From Branchiostoma floridae (taxonomy: Eukaryota > Chordata > Leptocardii > Amphioxiformes > Branchiostomatidae), in contig NC_049989.1 in NCBI RefSeq assembly GCF_000003815.2, positions 8,832,251 through 8,896,250 on the forward strand: a stretch of DNA of 64,000 bases. The letters run 5' to 3'. Each line of letters starts with the position of its first letter. The first letter of the stretch is position 1. Both the position numbers and the translations under genes were made by a program. Under the pieces are notes generated by a model that was not told where the DNA came from, did no database searches, and saw nothing but the letters and a program-made list of their open reading frames with translations. Shown here piece by piece: positions 13,496-61,700 of the stretch.

Positions 13496-16400
13496 TCATA
13501 TGATGGACTCTGCGGAACGGGAGAGGTGCAGAGGTGTGGACGGGCTGCGGGTCAGCCGTTTCCGTGGCAACCTGTCCAGCGTCTGCGTGAGGTCGCTGAA
13601 CTGGGGCCTCTTGTCGGGCTGAGTCTTCCAACACTGCATCAGGATATCCTGGGGAGGGGACGAGACAACAGGTGAAACGAGGATATCAGAGATGGCAGGC
13701 CTCACCCCCTCATTGAGGGACACTTCCATGTCCCACGGACAAAAATAGGAGCATTGAGGATGTTTGGTAATGCTGTGTTGTGTAAATGGAAATAGCAGAA
13801 ACACACATAGACAGTCCGACACACATACCTTGGCATCCCTACTCTGCACATTGCTGGGGGACTGTCGTAGACCCTTCCCCACCTGCCAGATAATGGACTC
13901 TGCCGGTTGAGTCTTGAAGGGGAGATCTCCCACCAGGAGTTCGTACCACACCGTTCTGGAGGGGGGTGGGAGGAGAAACATCTTACATTAACATGGGACC
14001 TTTATTTTCTATACCATGTTTCTACATTTATCTAAAGTTGTAGTGCACATTGTAAATCTAAGGGATTTACATTTCAGCATGTATATTTGCAAATAACAGT
14101 TACTAGAATCAACCTTACCACCTTTACCACTGTGGTCTCCGTTTGGCGGTCCTATCCATCATTCCTCCACTCGATCACAGCATTGAGAATGTAACTACCT
14201 GTCTAATATGACCATCGTCTTACAAGTCCTTTGACTGGTCACAGTAGACAGATTTAGACATAACAAAATGTCAAAACTTTATTGAATTCCCCTCACAATC
14301 TTCTGAAGCTCTACAGCTTCTTTCTTAGAAGTATTTTGTAGACAAAGACAAAGGTAAGTGTTCTCATTATGGGGTGTGTGACCTAGGCTTCTGTACACAC
14401 AAATGTATAAATATTAGGGGTGGGTATCGGTACAGAAAATCCAGGTCCAGGTCCGGTTCAGGTCCAGGTTTGGAGCTGAACCTGATTTTGTATGAGAATT
14501 TGTGAATGGACGATACTCAAAACAATGGCCCTTTTCGCAACAAAGAAATCTGTTTTGTAGAGTATTCAACTCCCACTGGCATTTTAAAATCCTACAAGGC
14601 CAACTGCTTCTGTACTATTGTCTGTAAAACTTGGTAGAAATGACTATAGACTCTACTCTACTTTGCTCTTGTTTTCCTTGACCGGTAAGCCCCAAAAGTG
14701 TGAATGCCTGATGATATAATCTGTTCATTTTCTAATAGGGCCAACATCCGGTCCACCAAATTTTTTCAGGTCCAGTATTTCTGGACCGGTCCAATAGGAA
14801 AAACTGTTTTGTACGGGTACACTGTACTGGTACCCACCCCTAATGCATATGTATTATCTACCATGTGTCGTCCTAACTTTAAAAAAATTCTCATTCCACT
14901 GACCCAAAGGCATAGACATCTGACGCCTGTGAGAAGGGCAGGTCACTGTCTGTGTACTGGCTTGTCGCTCGGAGAGACGTGATCACCTCCGGCGCCAAGT
15001 ACGGCAGCCATCCCGGCGGTATGGCCAGCGTGTCGTCCTTCCTGCACAGGCGCAAAGAAAAATGTACGCAATTCAAAAATTATGTTAGAACAAATGGTGA
15101 ATTTTAATATGACGTCCAAAACATGCTTAAATCAAGTTGGTTATGCCAAAATATTTCCTATGCCTTTTGGCGTATAGGGCAGTGTCCATTACCATTTCTA
15201 CAACCCTTGGGCCACACAGTTGTGCAGCACTATAGCAGAGGACTAGTCCACTGGTAGTGATGTGTGTTCAACTAATGACGCTATCTCATAAGTAATAAGT
15301 GCCATGCAGAGAAAGTTCAGACATACTAAAATAAAGTTAGTATACTCAACTGAAATAGCATGGCAAATTCAATAATTGTTCTAACTAGGAGCCAGAGGAT
15401 GGCAAAGGACAGATGATAAGAGCATATTCATAATAGCATAAAAATACAGAAATTTTCATGTGTGACTTTAAAGAAAAAAGCATACCTTTCTCCATATTGG
15501 ATCAGCTTGGTAACACTGAAGAGGCCAAAGTCAGTGATGACAACCTTGCCATTCTCTAAGAAGATGTTCTTAGACTTCAAGTCCTTGTGTAAGATCTCTC
15601 TGGCATGGAGGTAGCCCATGCCCTGGGGAAATGTCAATCATCCATTTAAAATCACATCCCTACCAAAATCCTGCCTCTGATTGGTCAGGAGTATTAATGA
15701 CATGCAGCTTACATAGCCAATAGGGGCTTGATAAAGAAGACTACTGCAGGGTTGGACAAGTCCACTAGCACTATTGTCCCGGGCAAGTGAAAGTGCTGTT
15801 CGGACAAGTGCATGACCTACACCACTTGCCCGATCGGGCATGTAAGATTTTTCCATTGATTGGATGCAATTTTGATATAGAAAAAAATAACTTGTTACTT
15901 TTTACTGTCATGACATCATAGTCAACAGAGAATTCCATTGCTGGAAGTGAAAATGCATATACTAGTATTAGTTTGAACAGTGACATTTGAATTTTGGGCA
16001 AGTGAAAAATTGGTTCGGGCAATAGGACAAGCGAATTTTAGAAAACTTGTCCAACCTTGTACTGTCTTCCTTATTGTCTGCAGTAGATTATCTAAAGTAG
16101 GCCAGCCAGGACCAGGATTTCACCAATCAAAAATAGAATTGGCCAAATATCAGGGAAGAAAATAGACAACTCACCTGAGCTATTTGCGTTGCTATGTTGA
16201 CTATCCTACTCATATTCAGCGTCTCTCTTCTGTCCCGTACTGTGTCGTACAACGTCTTTCCTTTACATAAACTGTGTACAAACAAATAAGAACTTCAGAG
16301 TCAATCTTGAACTTCATACTACAATTTAGAACTCTAAAGCCTGAATGCCACACATTTGAATATGAATATTATCTTTATGATCTACTCTACTCCAAAATTG

Positions 16401-48218: not shown

Positions 48219-51200
48219 ATGGACAACCTGAGTCCAACTCAGGTTCCAGGTGAGTCTCTGTGATGCAGTGCATGGTTTGGATTTTAGTGTGAGGGACTAA
48301 ATTGAACTAACTGCGTAGGATTTGAGTTGGTTTTCTGACTAAAGAAAATTTACAGTCCTCCGCTATACCTCCTTTGTCTTGGACGTTCTATACATTTCTG
48401 ATTTGTTTTTTTCCTGAAAATGAATTTCCTGAAATAGAGCATCGCCGAACGCTTTGTTCTTTCCCTCTAAAGTTTGTGAAACAACTTCATGATTTACTTC
48501 TAGTATTCATCCCGAATCTACTGCACTGTTTTGCATAGAGCCTGACTGCTTTGATTTTTATTATATAATTAGCATGTTTATTTGGTATGGATATGTAACT
48601 ACTAATTTATGCATGAGAGGTTTTGTGTACAGATTGGTAGCAGAACCTACCTCAGTTTGATTTTACTGAGTTAACAGCTAATGTAATCTTTCTCAAACTA
48701 CTGTAGTTTTTACTCTATTCTAGTGACTCTAGTCTAGGTATGATTTATGTTAAAAAAAAAAAAGATTTTACTGTAGAATCAAATGAAGAATGTGAGGTAC
48801 TTCAGCTCGTTGTGATGTCAGCTGTGCATCAAAAAGGCAAAAGAGGCAATATCTGTATCTATATAGCAAGTATAACAGCCCTTCAGGCTTAACTCACCAG
48901 CTTCGCAGGCATGTGGTGCTGCAGCGCTGCTGGTTATATTACACTTCAAAGGACCTGTCACATCTAACTTTTGCACATCTATCTACAAATGTTCTTAAAA
49001 ACTATCCAGCAAAGATGACGATAACAATAGTGAAACGCCGAGCCCATTCCAATTTGTGACAGGGCAAAAAATAGGTAAACGCTATTTAAACTTAAAGGCG
49101 ATTTTGAAATTTGTCAACCTCCTACTGATCTAAAAATCTGGCTGGCATTTGTTTGAATCATGAGGCAAAGTAGCTTTGCCAGGTCTTACTACCATGTTGA
49201 TATGTTCTGCAGACACTACACATGTAAATCCCCAGGGAATGTACTTACAAAAAAAAATCTCAGGCTCATTTTTGGTTGTAATAACATAGAACAACTAGAA
49301 GTATGCAGCATTTAAGGCTATCCTGTATGGGGTAAAGCTGAATGTTTGGTGTCTCTTTTTCCTAAATACATGACCTTTCTACAGAGGGGAGACCGTTGAG
49401 AGACCATCCAAAAATTTGACAAATCTCTCAGTCTCAACAATCTTTAAAACTTGAGTGCTCAATGATATCTATCATCCAGTGATTCATTGATCTCTCAGTG
49501 AATGCAGTGCATGTTATGAAAAGTATGAATGAATGGTTGCCCTCAGTTTGGAAGGTTTTGAGGTTCCTCAAAACAGCCTCTCAGGCAGCAGTCTGTGAAT
49601 GTAGCAGTCTTTCAATGAGTCACTCAGCGATCTCTCATTCTCAACGGGCACTCAACGGTCTCACCAGACGATCTGTCCAAGTCAAACATTCCTCAATGAA
49701 CACAACGTTTTTGGTGAATTTTCAGCCCCAACGGTGATTGGTGAGAGACTGTGCTCCGCATGAGAAATTGCTGAAGGACCATTGAAAGATCAGCAAGACA
49801 TTTATGAAACTGGCTGCTTGTGCAACCTGAAGCATAGAAGTGGTTAATGCAAAAAGTTGCAGACCCTCAATTGCTGATGAACAGGCTGCAAAACAAGATC
49901 TACACCATGCCTCCAAAGAAGTGGGTCAAAATAAATCCTCCAGCAGCTACTCCTAGTCCTATCCTTGCCCATGCTCCTGAGGAATCCAGTGACTCTGAGG
50001 TCTCCGATGTCACTGGCCTGAACAAGAAGAAGAGGAAGGACAAGACTGTGGCAACGTTGTCTGAAGAAGAAGAGGAGGTCATGTTGCAGTGGCTAAAGCA
50101 GCACCCAGAGTTTTACAACAGGAGGATGATGGAGTATAAAAACATCCAGAGGAAGGAGGCCCTGTGGCGACAGAAAGCATCAGACATGGGGAAAAGTGTG
50201 GAACATTTAAAAACCTGGTATCGGAGTATGAGAACGAGGATGGCCAGGCTTCTGAGGAATAAGGCCATGAAAACCAGTGAAGATCTAACAGACAGGGACA
50301 CGTGGGTGATAGAGAACTTATCCTTTCTCAGAAAGCACATTGAAGCTGTGCACAGGCGGCCAATAAAGGGCGTGAGTATTTTCATCTTGTTTGCATGCGT
50401 ATTCTTTCCACATTTCAAATTGTTACAAGTATGCATATCGTATCATTGTCAGTTTAATGTTTTTATCTACATCAATAATAAGTCTGTATAATGCAAGCTC
50501 TGTCTGTCTAAGGCTCTATGGTTCTGACCAATGGGAGGGCTGCTAGAAATGCAATTTGATCCAACTCTAAACTCTGGTGACTTATCAAAATTGTATCATT
50601 TCAGATCACTCAGAGATCTGCCCATACAACTGGACAAGGTTCTTTTGACTCTGTCATCTCCATTAAGACTGAAGCTGTCTCCGATACTACAGAAGCACCA
50701 GTCAGCAGTACATCCACGTCTACAGTCCCTAAGATTCCAGAACTAAGAAGGCCAGGTGAGCAGGACAGGAGCACCCTCGAGGGCCTGACCAACCATGTAA
50801 TGACAATGCAAAACCATCTCATCAGCCGTCTCCAACCACAGGGCGACCAGGAGAGGCTGGCGTTCTCGGAGTGGGTACGTGCGAGCCTGGTCGGCTTGGA
50901 ACACGACGTGTGGAGGCAGACCCAGAGGGAGATCACGGAAGTCCTCTTCCGTGCGATAGCGGAGAACGACGCTGCGAGAGAATGGCCGTCACAGGTTCCA
51001 AACCTGACCCCTGTCTGGGCTTCCACCAATCAGGAGCGGCAACAGCAGCAGGTTCATCACGTGAACTCCCAGAGTCCTGTTCCTCAGTCTCAAGTTCAAG
51101 AACAGACAAGGCCTAGATCCGCCCCTCCTGCCACGTCTACCTTCGACAATTCCGACGTTTCGCAGGACGTCAGCGGGTTCATTAACAACCTTCTTCGTAA

Positions 51201-54200
51201 CTTTGATACGAGATACAACTTACAAGATACGAGTTGACTTAGTGCTGTATTAGTTTGTCATACTCATAGTCTTATGTTGAATTAAATAGAAGTTGAACTA
51301 AAGGTCGAGTCAGTTGAATGTACATTGAATTTTACAATAAAAAGCTTGATGGTAGATATACTAATATTGCAATACAGTATTTTGCACAAGAGCAAGATTA
51401 AACAGCTGATGAACTAAATGTACAAATAACCGTCAACAATGTTTTTAAACATCATGATGTTAGACATTTTAACTTCGCTTTTTACAATGATGCAAAGACA
51501 ATTTGATACAGTGTAACTGTTTTTTTTTACGAGTTAGATAGGATAATAGTGAATTGCTGTATTAGTTAATTTGCCCCTAGATTAAGATTGTGTCTTTGGT
51601 GCTTCCATTTGTAACGCTCAACTTGGGGTAAAGTTAGTGTTCTTATGCCTTTTAGCAAGCCTAGATGTGCAAATGCATCTGTAGGTATTTCAATGGCATG
51701 ACTTATATATGTTGTATTATCATTTCTAACAAGAGTATGAATAAATCCCCACTGCAATGACTGTTTATGAATGTCAGCTTTTGTATCATTACTATTTGAT
51801 ATGAAACCTCAATATGCGATGTCTACAAAGCCAATGCAATAGGTTTCTGATAATGTTAATTGCTAATGTAAATTGACTTTTGTGCTATGTAACATAGAAA
51901 GTTGATTGACGGACTAAGTTACAAGTCAAACTAGTGAGAATGATAAAAATATTCTTTAACCATACAACATTTCATGTACTAATAACTATTATAGTCATTG
52001 ATAACCCCCAACCCCTGATCTGACTAATACCTTATGAATACAGTAGTTCATCTTACACCAGTAATGACTCTGGCTGCATCAGTTCTAGTTCCTTCATCTG
52101 AGGGATGCCTTATGCAGGGACTGAACTTCTTATAATAGATAGATCTCCAGAGGACAGGCTTTTAGCCATGCATGCGTCATTGCATCATCTGGACGGTCTT
52201 TTCTTAAAATAGCACAATGTTGGACGCACTAGACGCCTTTACTGTTACACTGGGGAGCAGATCCTCTGACAAGCAAGAAATTCTGTTTGACCAGGGATGC
52301 CACTAGGTCATCTGTGGTCTCAGTCATCTACTGTGACCTCTCTGACAGTAATTTTGGACCCTCTATAATAAAATCCTAGCTAAAAGACTGCCAGAGGAGC
52401 TTACGGTGCCAGGTTATTTGACTGAGTAGGCCTTCTTGGATATCATTGAAGAGGTTTATCAGTCACATGAGTAAGTTTATAGAGTAATTCTTCAATCAGT
52501 GACTCTGGAAAACTCATGTTTCAAGAGTCGCTAATTGAAGAATTATTCTATAAACTCCCTGCATAGGCTGTGAACCATATAAACACTTCGAAGTGCAGTG
52601 TAAATTGTAACAAGTGAGCCTGATTTTACCAATGGTTATTTAGACAAGATGAACACGAATGGACCCTAGCTATCCCATCTCAATTAATGTACTCCGCCTG
52701 TGTTTGGGTTAAGCAACTAGAAAACAGGCTTGTGTATATGTAGCAGCATGACAGCACATTCCTTACAATGTATGAATTGGAATGGACTATTTGTTGACAG
52801 TTCAGAGGGGGGTGAGGGGGACACATGTAATTAATGCCATAATTAAGGCTACAAACAATCCCTTTATGGTGCAGGTTTCTCTGTAACTAAGACTCAAATG
52901 ATTTGTTCCAGTCCATACTTGCCAAAAAATAAAACTTAAAAACTAAAAACTTAAAAACTTAAAAAATAAAAATAAACATGACAAACATGAATCATTGAAG
53001 GCGCATCACCATTTATTTCCCATAATGATTTATGGAATCCTTAGTTCGGGGAGTACTTTAAAAAAAAAATTAGATTTATCTCAAGTTCATCTTAAGCTGG
53101 GTATTAGCAAAGACCAAACACCACGGAACAAGCAAAACCAGTTTACTCTCTGGCTCTCCCCTTGAGAGAAGAACATAGGAAATTTGAACCTGTTGTCTTT
53201 AATTCCAGGAACATCCAACACCTACTTCCCCGTTCAACACCAACTAATCATGGCATCACCCGCTGGACACGTTAACCCCTCGTCACTGCCCGCCTTGGGA
53301 GGACTCATACCAGGCGCTCATCTGTTGGGCCGCGGGGGTCCTGTGCCTCAGAGCAAGTATGCAGAGCTACTTGCTGTTATAGAGGACTTGGGGAAGGACA
53401 TACGACCCACCTATGCTGGTAGTAAAAGCTCCACAGAGAGACTAAAGCGAGGTGGGTGCAATAAATGGTTCCCCTTTTTAGATGTTGTTGTCTTCACTTC
53501 TTTATCATCTGCACTTACTAATGTGTTGTTGTAGTTGTGAGATGCATTTGACATTAACCTTAATCATTGTCTTTGTATATAACATTTCCTAGTGTCACTT
53601 ATCCTATTAACAGTCTACATTGCTGTAACAAGTCATGAACTCCATTACATGCTAGGAGATACCGGGTATTGTGTCTGTACTAAATCATCATACGATTGGA
53701 CACATTAATCATTTTTAATGCATGCATGGATTACTTAATTAGTACTTACATTGTTGCCTCAGCTACCCATACACCCAGCATGCAATGGGACCTGGGATAA
53801 GCTTTATGCAGGGTTAGATTGAAGGAAAAACTCTTTTCTTTCTTTTCTTTTCTTACCCATGACAAGCTCTCAATTCCTTGTTTGGCCTGAGTTGTTTTCG
53901 GAGCTAACTTGTGTGGTGTGTGCCATATGCCTGTGGAGCGGGCGAGGGTGGCAACTCCTGTTGTGTTTTCTGTCTGTGCAGGTATTATCCATGCTCGGGC
54001 CCTGGTCCGCGAGTGTCTCATGGAAACTGAGCGCAGTGCAAGATCCTAAGAGATACAACAGTGCCAAAGAAGATATGAAAGAAAGCCAAAAAATACACAC
54101 AAAACTGCCAAAGAAATTTTTCTCCTATTTATTTTTCTCTCCCCGTCTTCCTCCCGCAGCAATTATTCACGCGAGGGCGTTGGTACGAGAGTGTCGCATG

Positions 54201-54227
54201 GAAATGGAGCGCAGTCAACGGTCATGA
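48219..54227 (+). CDS. CDK2AP1: CDK2-associated protein 1 (DOC-1)
   Basis: Small nuclear protein that binds CDK2 and is a subunit of the NuRD/MBD chromatin complex. Exon 1, 48219-48249 ([10 protein letters not shown], donor GTGAGT, phase 1). Exon 2, 53209-53451, encodes a variable linker and then [19 protein letters not shown] and [17 protein letters not shown], nearly identical to vertebrate CDK2AP1. The last exon is either 53982-54049 or 54160-54227, giving [11 protein letters not shown] plus a short tail. Total 113 residues (human 115). Exon 1 is assigned because its phase, strand and the resulting length fit; it is 5 kb away and the least certain part. The MADF gene lies in intron 1. Confidence 0.93.
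49380..49745. repeat. Cluster of CTCTCA/GAGAGACC short repeats upstream of the MADF gene
   Basis: Motifs such as GACCGTTGAGAGACC, ATCTCTCAGT, CACTCAGCGATCTCTCA and ACTCAACGGTCTCACC recur in both orientations over about 360 bp. No matching inverted end was found after the gene. It could be subterminal repeat of a mobile element or the promoter region. Confidence 0.35.
49907..51237 (+). CDS. MADF-domain (Myb/SANT-like) protein nested in CDK2AP1 intron 1
   Basis: Exons 49907-50371 and 50605-51237, with a 233-nt intron (GGC|GTGAGT ... CATTTCAG, phase 0). The start ATG in ACCATGC is preferred over an in-frame ATG 20 codons upstream. The product has 365 residues: acidic and Pro-rich N-terminus, nuclear-localisation-like KKKRK (40-44), MADF/Myb-like domain about 58-120 ([15 protein letters not shown] ... 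[14 protein letters not shown]), Ser/Thr-rich linker and a C-terminal helical region ([29 protein letters not shown]). AATAAA at 51336-51341 supports its own 3' end. MADF proteins bind DNA; similar ones occur as transposon accessory proteins and as domesticated host genes, and I cannot tell which this is. Confidence 0.8.
52475..52555. repeat. Imperfect 81-nt hairpin in CDK2AP1 intron 1
   Basis: A stem of about 34 bp with only a few mismatches (GTTTATAGAGTAATTCTTCA pairing with TGAAGAATTATTCTATAAAC, and GTGACTC with GAGTCGC) encloses a loop of about 13 nt. Size and mismatch pattern resemble a microRNA precursor but also a small palindromic transposon. Confidence 0.4.
53982..54049 (+). CDS. CDK2AP1: CDK2AP1 last exon, variant a (canonical TER tail)
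   Basis: Acceptor TGTCTGTGCAG. It completes the split codon as Gly, then reads [20 protein letters not shown], Ser, TAA. This matches the vertebrate RGIIHAR.LVRECLAETER tail including the TER tripeptide. No AATAAA is visible between its stop and variant b, so the transcript may simply run on into the common 3'UTR. Confidence 0.9.
54160..54227 (+). CDS. CDK2AP1: CDK2AP1 last exon, variant b (TER replaced by MER)
   Basis: It sits 178 nt downstream of variant a behind a very strong pyrimidine tract (TTTTTCTCTCCCCGTCTTCC, then CTCCCGCAG). It completes the split codon as Ala and reads [20 protein letters not shown], Ser, TGA. It has the same length (21 codons) as variant a, with four changes there plus the Gly-to-Ala at the junction. 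Codons differ at many synonymous positions (ATC/ATT, CAT/CAC, CGG/AGG), so the duplication is old and the protein has been conserved. Confidence 0.88.
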
Positions 54228-56899
54228 CGGACTAAACAGAACTGAACAGGACTCGCTAGTACATTGCTAGCACTAGCCATGCAAACATTCACTTTGTACC
54301 AATGGTATACTTTTGATATGTTTTTGAACTGTATTTAGTGATGTTCACTAGAAAAGTTCAGGGACTTAGATGTTCCGAGTGCCAGCTTATGGTAGGGTCA
54401 CATTTTCAAACTGAGGCTTGGTCGTGCAGTTTGCAGGAACAAGAAGTGTGATATAAAACATGAACTGATTGTCATGACCATAATTTGTATACACTTTTTT
54501 TCCGGCTAGGCCTCAGTTGGAAATTGTGACCCTATCATTAGGGAAGGACGTTGTACCAACCTTAGTTTTATGTGTAGGGTCGGTACGTACCTGTAGAACC
54601 TATAACTTCAATAATCATGTTTTTAATTTAACTACACAGTAGCACAACATTAAGTTTATTGGTATTCCTAGGTTGTCATACAGCAAGATGCCATGTTCCT
54701 TGTCAGACTAGAATTTTCCTCTGACCCTGACTCCTACTTTTTATATATGCTACATGTGAGTTGTCTGTATGTTAAGTACCTTTGGCAATTCTGCTAAATT
54801 TGGGACGGTAGCTTTTCTTGGAAACATACTTGAATTTATTAGGGATGCAGTTTGCTATCCATATCTACATGTATTGAACTATATCCAAGAGCAGTAATAC
54901 ATATTAAGTTGTGCCAATTAAGCATTAGGAAAAATGTATGTATGTTCAGCTATTACTGAATGTTGTTATGCATCTTTATGGACCAAGAAAATTAGTTTTC
55001 TTACTGTTTCTGATTCTACCCCAAACACCTTAGGTGCTGATAAAGGACTGTGTAGCTTTACTATGTGTGCAACTTTGTAGTGCCTGTATTACATAACAAC
55101 AATGCTGTTGATGTAAGAATAGTCCTAAATGTAGAGCTTGTTGAAGACAAAAAGTATGAACATCATACTGGCACATTTCTCAACATCAGTAAACTGTATT
55201 TACATGTACAAATATTGTCAGTATTTGTTTGCTTATGTTTGTGTGTGTGTGTGTGTGCGTGTTTGGGATTACACATTGTCTCATTGTATGTGAGTAGCCT
55301 GTGTTTACACAATCTCTTGCTTGCTAGGTGAGAGACTTGAGACTTGCGCGATTTTAGTCAGGCTATAGTCTGAAGAGTAAGAAATTCACAACCCTAGAGC
55401 TGTGTAAGGGTATACCGGTAGTCAATACCAGAACCCTAGTGTACCGGTTCTGTACCTATATAATCCAGAACACATGTGACCATTCACATCAAGGGACTGC
55501 CTGTCTGTCACTTCGCACTACACAAGGGAACTGACAGAAGAATTCACTTTAAAATTCTAAAATTTGTTTAGGTACACAGCTCTACACAACCCCTCATTCA
55601 TGCTCAGGGTATTACATGTAGTAGACATTATTTCCATACTGGCCTTAGCCAAGCTCAATATGCCATGAGCTGAGAGGTCCCACCAAAGTGAAAGTCAAAT
55701 TGTTCCACCAGTATTTGCATCCTGTCCTCCAGACAAAGGTATGCCAATTGTGATGATACAGACCCTTCACAGCAGAGGGGGCTAAATTACCAGTAGTCAT
55801 TGGAAACTGCACAAGTCTCTCCCCATCTTACCACATACATTAGCCTGACTTGTAATACATAACATCCATTACTTTCAATGAATCTGATTTACTCCGCCTC
55901 CCTTGAACCAGATTTGTACCTATCATACCACTAGGCTTTGTGAATCGGAATCATCTGGGTGAATCCAGGTCAGAGAAACCTGGTATACACAGGGTCAAAG
56001 TCACACTTCTAGCAGCCCTCCTACTGGTCACATAGACATTAACTATCATCATACAGCACCTGAGTGGATAGAAAGCCTTGTCAAGAATATATAAAAATGT
56101 ATTCAACAGGAAAAGCAAATCACTTGACCATTTGTGCCATACTACAATGAAACAAGACATTGGTGAGTATATCAAGAGAAAGAATCTTATTTACTCAATT
56201 TCTTATTTTTGCTGCAGAGAGTGGAAGCAGAGAGCAAGCAACTTGCTTATTTCCTTTTTTTACATGTCTACAACTCATGCACTTACAAACATCAGGTTAA
56301 TCTGTGCAATCAAGCTGCAATTCCCATGATGAATAACATGAACTCTAGTCATTAGCCAAGCATAATTTCCTGGTGGATTTATATAGTTAAATTTGTAAAT
56401 ACACTGTACTACTGGTCATTCTAGTAAAACCAACATCATCTTTGTTCCTCAAAATATTGCAGAGTAAATTTGCCTTCACTGTGACATTCTATTTATCTCG
56501 CCAGTTATCATTTCTAAGCATAAGCAGATGCAATTGTCAATGCTCACAGAGTATTTATAACTAGGTGTCTTTGTCTTTTGTAGACTGACTAGTATCTTTT
56601 TGGCAAACAGAATTATATTTAATATGGCATGATTGATGACTTGAAGAATAAAGGCAAGGAGAAGTTTGATCTGACTCTTATCTCTCTTAGTGCAGTACCT
56701 AATCAAAGCAGTACATAGACCCACTATCACAGTAGTTGTTATACAACATTTCTCTGCAATATGAGCTGGAATTCTGAAAGGCTTTAAAACATACCAATGA
56801 CTACTATGATTGTGTACATGATGTGCCTTACTTCTCATTTCATTGACAATCATTTCTCAACTGATTTTCATTATATCACCATCCTTCTGCGCATGTCCT
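54228..56899. other. CDK2AP1 3'UTR and convergent intergenic region; no further gene seen
   Basis: CDK2AP1 (plus) and MTRFR (minus) converge here. The region is AT-rich, with a short TG repeat near 55240 and no conserved open frame. AATAAA on the plus strand appears only near 56647, too far to assign with confidence. Confidence 0.4.
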
Positions 56900-57789
56900 T
56901 CACACTTCATCATCAGATTCTTGCAGGAGCTGTTTAAAGGCCCTTTTCTTCTCCAGGTTCTTGTTGGCCTTTTTCCGTTTCTCTCTTTTTTTGATGGCGA
57001 GTTCTCTCTTCTCCTTGACCAGCTCACTCTCCTGTCCCTTCAGATGTAGATCTAGTTTCTCTCTCATATGCTGTCTGGCTATCTTCCTGTTTTCATCCAA
57101 GGACCTGGTTTGGTGGCACTGTGATAAGAGGGATAAAAGTTGTTGAAATTTTTAAGGGTTTACGAGACAAGCAAACAATTTTTTTGTAGTATTAAATGAA
57201 TGTACACATATGTTTCAATCAAATACAGTGGTTCAAGAAAAAAAAGCAAAAACAAAAAAACAACAACATATATTTCAATATTTTGTAACTTGTGTTCACA
57301 ATTATTATTAAAAGCAATATGTTCCAGAACACACAAAAGTCCCACCAATGATTCCCACAACCTGATGATTACAAAATGGAATGATCATTGAAAAATGAAT
57401 TGTGTTATGTTTTACTTGGACATGCGAAATTTCAAGTTGTGTTGAATAAACCAAAGAAAGGAACAAAAGTCTACCTTCACTACAATGCCAGTCGGGACAT
57501 GCTTCAGTAGTACACAGTTGTTGGTCTTGTTGGTTGCCTGTCCACCAGGTCCCCAGCCACGCTGAAAGCTCTCTTCCAACTCTGACTCTACTAGTTCAAC
57601 TAAACTCTTTTTGGGTTCTTTTCTGCTGCTTGTCCAGCGAATGGAATACTGTTGTAAACATCTTGGTGGATGTTGTTGTCCTACCAAAGTCGCCTTGCAA
57701 GCTGACAGCAACGAGAATTGTCTTTGTAAACAACCATAAAACAGCGGTGTTAGCTGTAGGTTTTTGGCAAGTAAGGTCAAAGATGTCAT
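56900..57789 (-). CDS. MTRFR: Mitochondrial translation release factor in rescue (C12orf65 homologue)
   Basis: MTRFR hydrolyses peptidyl-tRNA stuck on dissociated mitochondrial large ribosomal subunits. Exons: 57475-57789 and 56900-57118, phase 0 (AAG|GTAGAC ... TTATCACAG). Product 177 residues (human 166). The chosen start at 57789 gives a basic, hydroxylated mitochondrial presequence ([12 protein letters not shown] ... [11 protein letters not shown]). The GGQ catalytic motif lies in [17 protein letters not shown], followed by [12 protein letters not shown] and [12 protein letters not shown], as in human. The C-terminal extension is Lys/Arg-rich ([16 protein letters not shown]), typical of this family's ribosome-binding tail. 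An in-frame ATG 21 codons upstream exists but would spoil the presequence. Confidence 0.94.
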
Positions 57790-58265
57790 GTTGAACAGTT
57801 GTACATGAATGAAAAGTGACTGAATTGTCCAAATATAATGAAAAGTGCACATAAATTGCTCAAAAGTCGATCGATGGCAATTTTCTAGTCTTGTTCAGCC
57901 ATGTTGCAGGTCAGAGGTGAATGGTTGAGACTAATACCCAAGAGGGTGATTAGTACACATAACAAATTTTGTATACTAGCAAGAAGCTCCTTTATCCTAG
58001 CTAGCTGAGACTGTAAAATATTTTCTTGACAACAGTTAATCTTTATGTGGTTAAGAAAATTTATGCGAGCCAATATCGAATATTTCTTGTGACTGTCGAA
58101 AGATTTGTGATTTAAGTCTCCCATTTTGACTATGAAACAGTCTGACCAAAAAATAATGTTTCAAGAAGTGTGATTGGCTATGAGGTTTAGCAAACAACCA
58201 ATCATGTGGCCGGATTAAGTTTCAAGACATGTTATCGTCCCGCCCCGGGCTCTTTTGCAAATATA
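57790..58265. promoter_or_regulatory. Bidirectional promoter of MTRFR and MPHOSPH9
   Basis: The two genes are divergent with start codons less than 1 kb apart. CCAAT boxes occur in both orientations (GATTGGC near 58171, ACCAATC near 58197) and a GC box (CCCGCCCCGGG) lies near 58240. The plus-strand leader begins just after with ATGGCGGCGACC. Confidence 0.6.
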
Positions 58266-58762: not shown

Positions 58763-61700
58763 ATGGCAGCTGCTACAGATGCTAAACCACCGTTCGACGG
58801 CGATCTAACCACTGACAGTGGCTTTCTCTCACAAAATCCGCTCACAACTACACAACTGGACGTTACGGTTGAAGGGCTGAAAGAGGAAGAAAACTCCTCG
58901 GTAACAACGCCTGCAAATACAGCTGGTGATGTCGTTACCACAGAGAATGGGGATCCAGGGATTGAAGATCTTAAGAGTTCTAACGGCAATGCAGGTCTTA
59001 AGGACACCAACACAAAGACCACAAGCCATTTGCATGGTGAAAGTTTGCAGACAGAAGCTCCAGGCACTGAGGACCAAAACTCAACACAACAGGAAGACAG
59101 TGGACTGGTGGAAATGGCAAGCAGGGCCAGCAGTGACACAATCTCACAGACAGGAAGTGAACCTAAGGAGGATGTAACGTTGCAACAAGATGGAGGGCTT
59201 GGGAAAACGGAAGGTCAGAAGTCGCTTCCTGAAGACGTTGGTAAAACAAGAAGCCCAAGATTATCCGGTAGCCCTTGGGACAACAGGACAAGTCCGTTAA
59301 GTTTTGATCAACATTCTCCTGTCACTCCGTGGCCGCTGGAAACCATGAGCGTTTACGTAGACAAGATGAGTGAATATGAAGGGGAGGGGAGGAGAAGGAT
59401 GCTGGAAGAGCGGTGGCTGCAGCTGTTCCAAGAAATGGAGCTGCGCCACCAGGAACACATGCTGGCTCAGCAAGAAGCACATCAGCGACAGATCCGACAC
59501 ATTCAAGTTCAGATTGAGCGAGAAATGCTTCACCACCAGTTGAGGCAGGATAGGCGGATTGACAGCGGCGGGAAAAACAGTTCTGGGATTGGGTCTTCAC
59601 GCGGGAGCCCCGCAAAGGAAGAGCAATTTGTGATCAAGCCTATCGCAGAAAACCGAGCCAGACAAAGCAGTAGTGCCACAGATATTGCAGACAGCTTAGA
59701 AAATGTTTCAAGGCAGACAAGTAGAATAGAAGATAACAGTCCAGAATCAGTCGGATACAACAAAAGTACACCTTTCCCCCAACAAAGTGTACCACAGATG
59801 CAGGTTACTGATGCTACTGACGAAGATGAAGATTTTCCCAGTGTTTCTACTACCAACACACCCAAAGCGAAGGAGCATAAATCAAATGGACTACATGGTC
59901 AGAGTGAGGTTATTGCGGCACAGTGGCCATTGCGTGAGCCCCCAAAAGACACTCAACTCACGAAACCGTTAACAACTTGGTCAAAGAGGCAACAATCTGT
60001 TCAACAGAAATCAAGAGACGATCCAAAACCACCAACTGATTCCATTAAAGCAAGAAACGAAGAGGAAGAGGTAAACAAGTTTTATCCAAGTGTGCCGTAT
60101 AGTCGATACCCAGCTCACGATGCACAGATTCTAAAGATAGGAGAGAACGGTTCTATAACGGAAGAGTTTGTGCCAGCGGGGCCAGTGGAGAGTGTAAGTC
60201 CATCTACAACAGTGTGCTCGGGATTCTCGTACTGGAAGATGGATGAAAATGAGTTGTACCAGAAGCTGCCGGATGATCTGACGTTAAACGAGGTGTCGGT
60301 AGAGTTGTCACCTCCACGAGGGGTAGTGCCATCCCAGCCACTTCCTGAAAGGCACGCTCGTTCCCAGGGCACTGAGGGCCAAAGACAACCTCCTTCCCAG
60401 GGTCAACTGCCACCTGATCCAATGAAAGTTGCACAGATGACTCCAGGTGGGGTTTGTGTCATTTTAATGTTGACTTAATTATGAACACCCCTATATATAA
60501 AGCGTTGTCATAAGGTACTAGTAGGTACATGTAGTTATAAGTCTTGGTTGCAACGTTAAGACAAAGTACCAGTCTGGGTTAAGATTTTATTGGAGTATCA
60601 ACTTCTCAAGTATGTGTTTATGAAGTTATATTTTAAAGAACAATGAATACCTGAAGGTATAAACAAACAAGTTTCTTGTTTCTGACAAGATTTTTTTGCT
60701 TTAATTAAGGTACAAAGTTGAAGACTGAGCTTCGAGATAGGCATGAAAAAATGAAGGCTTACATGGCGGACGTGGATATGACCTCTGACCCCACAGGAAC
60801 AACCAAAGATCCCTCCCTTACTGAGGATCCAGTGGTCGCATCAAAGTAAGTTATAATTACCGAAGTAATTTGAAAAAAAAATCTATTATGCATACTACTT
60901 TGAAAGGTTTGGGTTTATATCCAAGTAGAGTAGCCTACACTATGTAATTCCATTTATAATTAGATATTCCAATCTTATTTGTTGATTCTCAAGCAAAGAA
61001 ACCGTTGTGGCCTCAATGAAAAACTCCTGGGAAAAGATGTATCAATGTATCAATCTTTCTTCGTATAGGTACTTTTTGATATTATTCAGATACAGTGTAC
61101 ATGTACATTCATTATGATAGAAAGTCTAATGTAGGCTTGATGGTGATGTATAATGTATTGCTATATCCTCTGTTTTAAAACTCTTTGTACTTTCCCACTG
61201 CTTGCCAGTGAAGCAGACAATGAGTAAGTATTTTTGACGGTTAAACCCTTTTCCCATGCCTTTGTTGACAGTGTATTAGGTACAACATAGCGTAATAGAC
61301 CTTTAGGCAAACATGGTCTTTTGTACATACCTGCGTGTACGTGTACATTGTGTGGGAACAATGGACCCTGCTCCCGTTAGGTGACCTTAGCTCGGCCTTA
61401 GCTTTGTGAAGCACAGGTGTTTTTGATGTTCCCCTTGGGACATTGTAAAATATTCATGTAGGTTAATATGTATAGAATTAGAAAGTATCTCTAGCCTGCA
61501 CTTACTTTTCAAATGTATCATACGTATATAAAAAGATATGATAGATTTATTTCCATGTTCGTGTCAGTGTCATCAGCAAGGACAATGGTATGTGGCACCA
61601 GTAACATGAAATGATTTTTACAATGGTTCGATATACATCATCAGAGCTCAAAATACATATTATGTAGAAATGATTTCAAGGAAGAAAAACTATCTACCAT

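Follow-up and report, generated by a model that had tools for sequence, protein, structure and literature searches.

A candidate pair of alternative terminal coding segments in a CDK2AP1 gene of the lancelet Branchiostoma floridae

Tandem duplication that leaves a gene with two homologous alternative exons is known from FGFR IIIb/IIIc, whose splicing has been studied in Branchiostoma lanceolatum (PMC5703972), and JNK likewise possesses a mutually exclusive exon pair (PMC8586503), as described in the accessible parts of both papers. The CDK2AP pair presented here resembles FGFR IIIb/IIIc in that homologous alternative exons lie adjacent to each other in a chordate gene. It differs in that the stop codon is part of the duplicate and in that the putative choice concerns 3' splice sites within one terminal region. 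Isoform choice in the CDK2AP1 gene itself has been reported from the mouse, where an N-terminally truncated form, Cdk2ap1 deltaN(MT2B2), promotes proliferation through CDK2, so that isoforms of this gene have opposed effects on proliferation, according to the available sections of a review (PMC12350819). That truncation originates from a transposon promoter, whereas the lancelet case is a C-terminal exon duplicate. The human proteins CDK2AP1 and CDK2AP2 (p12DOC-1 family, PF09806) resemble both predicted lancelet forms, here called a and b, over helix 1, helix 2, and the tail. What sets the lancelet apart is that a single gene carries a pair of candidate alternative terminal segments; both human proteins contain TER.

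CDK2AP1 is portrayed, in the portions of the literature covered, as both a CDK2 inhibitor and a NuRD subunit, and mouse Cdk2ap1 was found in the larger only of two NuRD assemblies, as far as the accessible text of that study goes (PMC4813707). Residues 61-115 of human CDK2AP1 form a homodimer folded as a four-helix bundle, where Cys105 alternates between contacting Tyr63 within its own chain and across chains and is termed critical for CDK2 interaction; the NH groups of Thr109 and Glu110 lie at most 7.5 A from the Tyr63 rings (Fig. 5 legend), and Thr109-Glu110-Arg111, in pocket 1, is a proposed CDK2 site, attributed to Shintani 2000 (PMC11875312, a preprint, in its accessible parts). Which CDK2AP1 residues serve the CDK2 role and which the NuRD role is not settled in these sources, and a natural tail variant would bear on this question. 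Our literature search returned no paper on CDK2AP1 or CDK2AP in amphioxus or Branchiostoma, and none linking CDK2AP1 with "TER motif" or DOC-1 with CDK2 and TER. No C-terminal CDK2AP1 isoform of such a kind was met in the literature searched, which covers a part of the isoform papers, and others may describe isoforms. Tandem-duplicated alternative exons are already known; the lancelet CDK2AP1 pair, predicted from sequence, is a good new candidate.

Gene identity and arrangement of the twin segments

The window, which is the whole stretch of DNA analyzed, comprises 64,000 nt of B. floridae (C11:8832251-8896250 of a 513-Mb, 431-contig genome). An initial annotation had identified the gene under study as CDK2AP, and this is borne out by PF09806 scores of 76.8 bits for the a form and 71.7 bits for the b form (curated cutoff, 26.2) as well as by alignments to human CDK2AP1 (2kw6) and CDK2AP2 (2m1l), in which helix 1, helix 2, and the tail of the a form all match and the b form aligns with lower scores. 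The 22-residue tails alone reached 25.1 bits (a, just below the cutoff) and 19.6 bits (b, below the cutoff). When the whole genome was searched with the profile at E <= 1, two matches were obtained, one in exon 2 (53352-53453) and one in segment a (53981-54043). Since both fall within a single locus, this search shows one CDK2AP gene in the genome, although a divergent second gene could escape detection. Segment b by itself was absent from the matches at E <= 1, which is a point against the explanation proposed below. Despite this, the spliced b form is clearly a member of the CDK2AP family, as its PF09806 score attests. For relatives elsewhere, pattern matches numbered 31 in a viral and 173 in a prokaryote collection, and none of them was confirmed.

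Exon 2 ends with CTA AAG CGA G|gtgggt and leaves one base of a split codon (Table 1). Its first in-frame ATG, at 53250, is a candidate start only and does not fix the start of the protein. In the search for the first coding exon, a start motif of the human type returned two dissimilar matches, and no donor emerged from a scan of 51240-53120.

Table 1. Predicted features at the 3' end of the lancelet CDK2AP gene (window positions)
Feature	Position	Strand	Basis
Exon 2, common to both forms	53209..53451	+	Open frame, splice signals, PF09806 match; start inferred from acceptor
Intron if acceptor a is chosen	53452..53981	+	Inferred from donor and acceptor sequences
Coding segment a: completes Gly, then shared stretch, tail, and stop	53982..54049	+	Frame, splice signals
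Spacer: 3' UTR in the a form, intron end in the b form	54050..54159	+	Acceptor b, rich in pyrimidines, closes the spacer
Coding segment b: completes Ala, then shared stretch, tail, and stop	54160..54227	+	Frame, splice signals

Segments a and b are each 68 nt long, and each completes the split codon of exon 2 and continues with an 11-residue stretch, a 10-residue tail, and a stop codon (TAA at 54047-54049 in a, TGA at 54225-54227 in b). Acceptor a reads ctgtgcag| (ag at 53980-53981) and acceptor b reads cctcccgcag| (ag at 54158-54159). Frames and splice sequences confirm what had been noted about the paired segments, namely, their length, their good acceptors, and their completion of the exon 2 codon. 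With 49/68 bases identical and the same split-codon phase, they are adjacent homologous copies. A repeat search recovered the pair with 71% identity over 84 nt and a start-to-start spacing of 178; the value of 178 nt given previously for the distance between the segments is correct, but it is measured from start to start.

None of the four poly(A)-type hexamers scanned (AATAAA, ATTAAA, AGTAAA, and TATAAA; rarer signals were outside the scan) occurs between segments a and b, which speaks against a separate poly(A) site for the a form. Downstream, such a hexamer is first encountered at 54452 (TATAAA), and AATAAA itself first occurs at 56647. Given the absence of these hexamers between the segments, the arrangement is best read as one donor with two competing 3' splice sites and a common 3' end, and an a-type mRNA would probably carry b inside its 3' UTR. 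The earlier description as two last exons holds insofar as there are two homologous terminal coding segments, but alternative 3' splice-site choice is the better term.

In a crude pyrimidine count over 26 YAG sites in 53480-54399, acceptor b ranked top with 15/17, and acceptor a, which is the proximal site and has CAG|G, was tied second (12/17) with two unproven intron YAG sites. That acceptor a does not surpass these two sites in the count, crude as it is, is a further point against our proposal. Masking of one acceptor by RNA structure was rejected, as the region 53952-54250 folds no better than its shuffles (z, +0.57; 143 of the 200 shuffles were at least as stable). Upstream of both segments, two overlapping Rbfox-type TGCATG motifs are present at 53719 and 53723; at least as many GCATG occur in 298 of 6347 equal-length stretches of the window, so this count is not unusual, and we make no claim for splicing-factor sites.

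Some minor features of the region were also recorded. Three imperfect A-rich 22-nt copies are found at 54048-54115 (+) in the spacer between a and b, and the presumed 3' UTR contains an inverted repeat, 54386-54424/54503-54541, with 39-nt arms that are 82% complementary. Read upstream, the frame of segment b stays open across the spacer and segment a as far as 53859 (53859-54227, +, 122 amino acids), with no Pfam match at E <= 0.01, and this long open frame is probably due to chance.

Age and constraint of the pair

Segments a and b are identical at 49/68 bases and 18/22 residues. The next-best ungapped placements in the 64-kb window, searched on both strands, reached at most 33/68, which rules out chance similarity of the two segments. 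Their upstream flanks match at 28/100 positions, which is the chance level, and the 50 bases past the stops match at 19/50, slightly above the one-in-four chance. Across the 22 sense codons, 4, 4, and 10 differences fall on codon positions 1, 2, and 3, respectively. Nei-Gojobori counts gave 12.5 synonymous differences per 16 sites, which is saturated, versus 5.5 nonsynonymous differences per 50 sites (dN, 0.12; Fisher P on rounded counts, 4.4e-6).

Because constraint on a alone could account for part of this substitution pattern, we simulated a neutral b with constrained a as the ancestor and a fixed transition bias, at six rates and with 20,000 runs each. The joint outcome of an open frame, at most 4 replacements, and at least 10 third-position differences arose in 10, 52, 9, 1, 0, and 0 runs per 20,000 at the six rates; the model was run without indels and acceptor loss, both of which would lower these counts, and without gene conversion. 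With synonymous sites saturated and neutral b fitting in at most 52/20,000 runs, b is an old, protein-constrained duplicate, constrained through much of its history, as judged within one genome. Age and protein constraint had already been claimed for the pair, and both the substitution counts, a between-segment check of the dN/dS type, and the simulation uphold this. The simulation rejects lifelong neutrality of b, ruling out a pseudo-exon that has always been neutral, and leaves room for a recent loss of use. The 246-bp stretch comprising a and b has a single match in its own genome, and together with the saturated synonymous sites and the unrelated upstream flanks this disfavors recent duplication or an assembly artifact.

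The altered tail and its possible meaning

In human CDK2AP1 numbering, counted back from the C terminus (2kw6, residues 61-115), the replacements from a to b are G94A, L106R, T109M, and A113Q. The three in the tail had been listed in the initial annotation; the fourth, G94A, which lies in the split codon (GGT Gly in a, GCA Ala in b), had been missed. At each of the four positions where the segments differ, a agrees with human CDK2AP1 and CDK2AP2, and parsimony therefore assigns all four replacements to b. In the alignments to 2kw6, Cys105 and Tyr63 of the human dimer are retained in both forms. Glu110 and Arg111 are also retained in both, so that the tripeptide at 109-111 is TER in a and MER in b, with only Thr altered. 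On an ideal helix, residues 106, 109, and 113 span 60 degrees; equally tight clusters are formed by 108/1540 random triples, by 6/120 triples within the tail and, with residue 94 included, by 799/7315 quadruples. This clustering on one face is weak and suggestive only.

On balance, we incline to the explanation that an ancient tandem duplication of the last CDK2AP coding segment produced alternative 3' splice targets and that the pocket has been remodeled in b. Both copies would be targets of the donor at 53451 and have a common downstream 3' end. Choice of acceptor a would yield the canonical CDK2AP1 tail, with b staying unread in the 3' UTR, and choice of acceptor b would yield a protein identical up to ERLKR and then altered in its C-terminal helix; the two acceptors might be used in different cells or stages. 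Since helix 1, Tyr63, Cys105, and the greater part of helix 2 stay the same, the b form would be expected to still build the dimeric four-helix bundle, either by itself or together with a. L106R and T109M sit by the Cys105-Tyr63 contact and pocket 1, and for this reason we suppose that b shifts partner preference at pocket 1, with regard to CDK2 or another partner, rather than acting as a plain CDK2 off-switch. If pocket 1 is altered while the dimer survives, mixed a/b dimers are likely. L106R, which adjoins Cys105, may matter as much as T109M, and loss of CDK2 binding in b is one possible consequence of the altered pocket.

With a predicted dimer core that is kept and four residues changed, Thr109 of the proposed CDK2 site among them, the b tail would represent a ready-made separation-of-function reagent. 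Vertebrates have two CDK2AP genes; if b is used, splicing of one chordate gene would generate a diversity for which vertebrates may rely on two. Going further, one might speculate, though we consider this unlikely, that the ancient tail duplicate provides two CDK2/NuRD adaptor forms that also heterodimerize, with R106, M109, and Q113 retuning the Cys105-Tyr63 switch and pocket 1 and thereby parting cell-cycle from chromatin roles by splicing.

All four replacements assigned to b affect positions that both human proteins conserve, a pattern to be expected of a relaxing copy, too, and this also counts against the remodeling proposal. It fits a relict, long functional and now unused or rarely used behind a main a form, a reading compatible with the simulation and with the proximal position and CAG|G of acceptor a. 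The intact frame of b and its acceptor, the most pyrimidine-rich of the 26 scanned, argue against it, and we give this reading a minor share of our confidence. The initial annotation had viewed the pair as a CDK2 on/off switch, in which a binds CDK2 through TER and b does not, with both forms joining NuRD. TER is indeed a proposed CDK2 site, and b has Met at 109, but b alters Thr only and keeps Glu110 and Arg111 and also Cys105, termed critical for CDK2 interaction in the accessible parts of the same preprint (PMC11875312). A need for Thr alone is without support in the literature covered, and the three other replacements are left aside by such a switch, which in its plain form appears rather improbable. 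That b is the main form and a a minor or embryonic one would agree with the richer pyrimidine tract of acceptor b, but the proximal position of acceptor a, its CAG|G, and the retention in a of all four residues common to both human proteins make this very doubtful. The divergence, flanks, simulated runs, and single genomic match described above make it scarcely credible that b is a neutral pseudo-exon, was copied recently, or arose as an assembly artifact.

Neighboring genes

Elsewhere in the window, 13496-13981 (-) encodes what looks like the last part of a protein-kinase domain, KSR-like by eye, with a PF07714 score of 20.6 bits (under the cutoff of 23.1). Upstream of CDK2AP1, the ORF at 49847-50491 (+) contains a MADF DNA-binding domain (PF10545, 34 bits; cutoff, 22). 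At 58763-60478 (+), a 571-amino-acid ORF, for which Pfam gave no match at E <= 0.01, may resemble MPHOSPH9, another neighbor of human CDK2AP1. An ORF at 57412-57852 (-) contains an RF-1 domain (PF00472, 38 bits; cutoff, 35) and by eye is similar to the mitochondrial rescue factor MTRFR. As MTRFR is a neighbor of human CDK2AP1 on 12q24, the gene order is possibly conserved.
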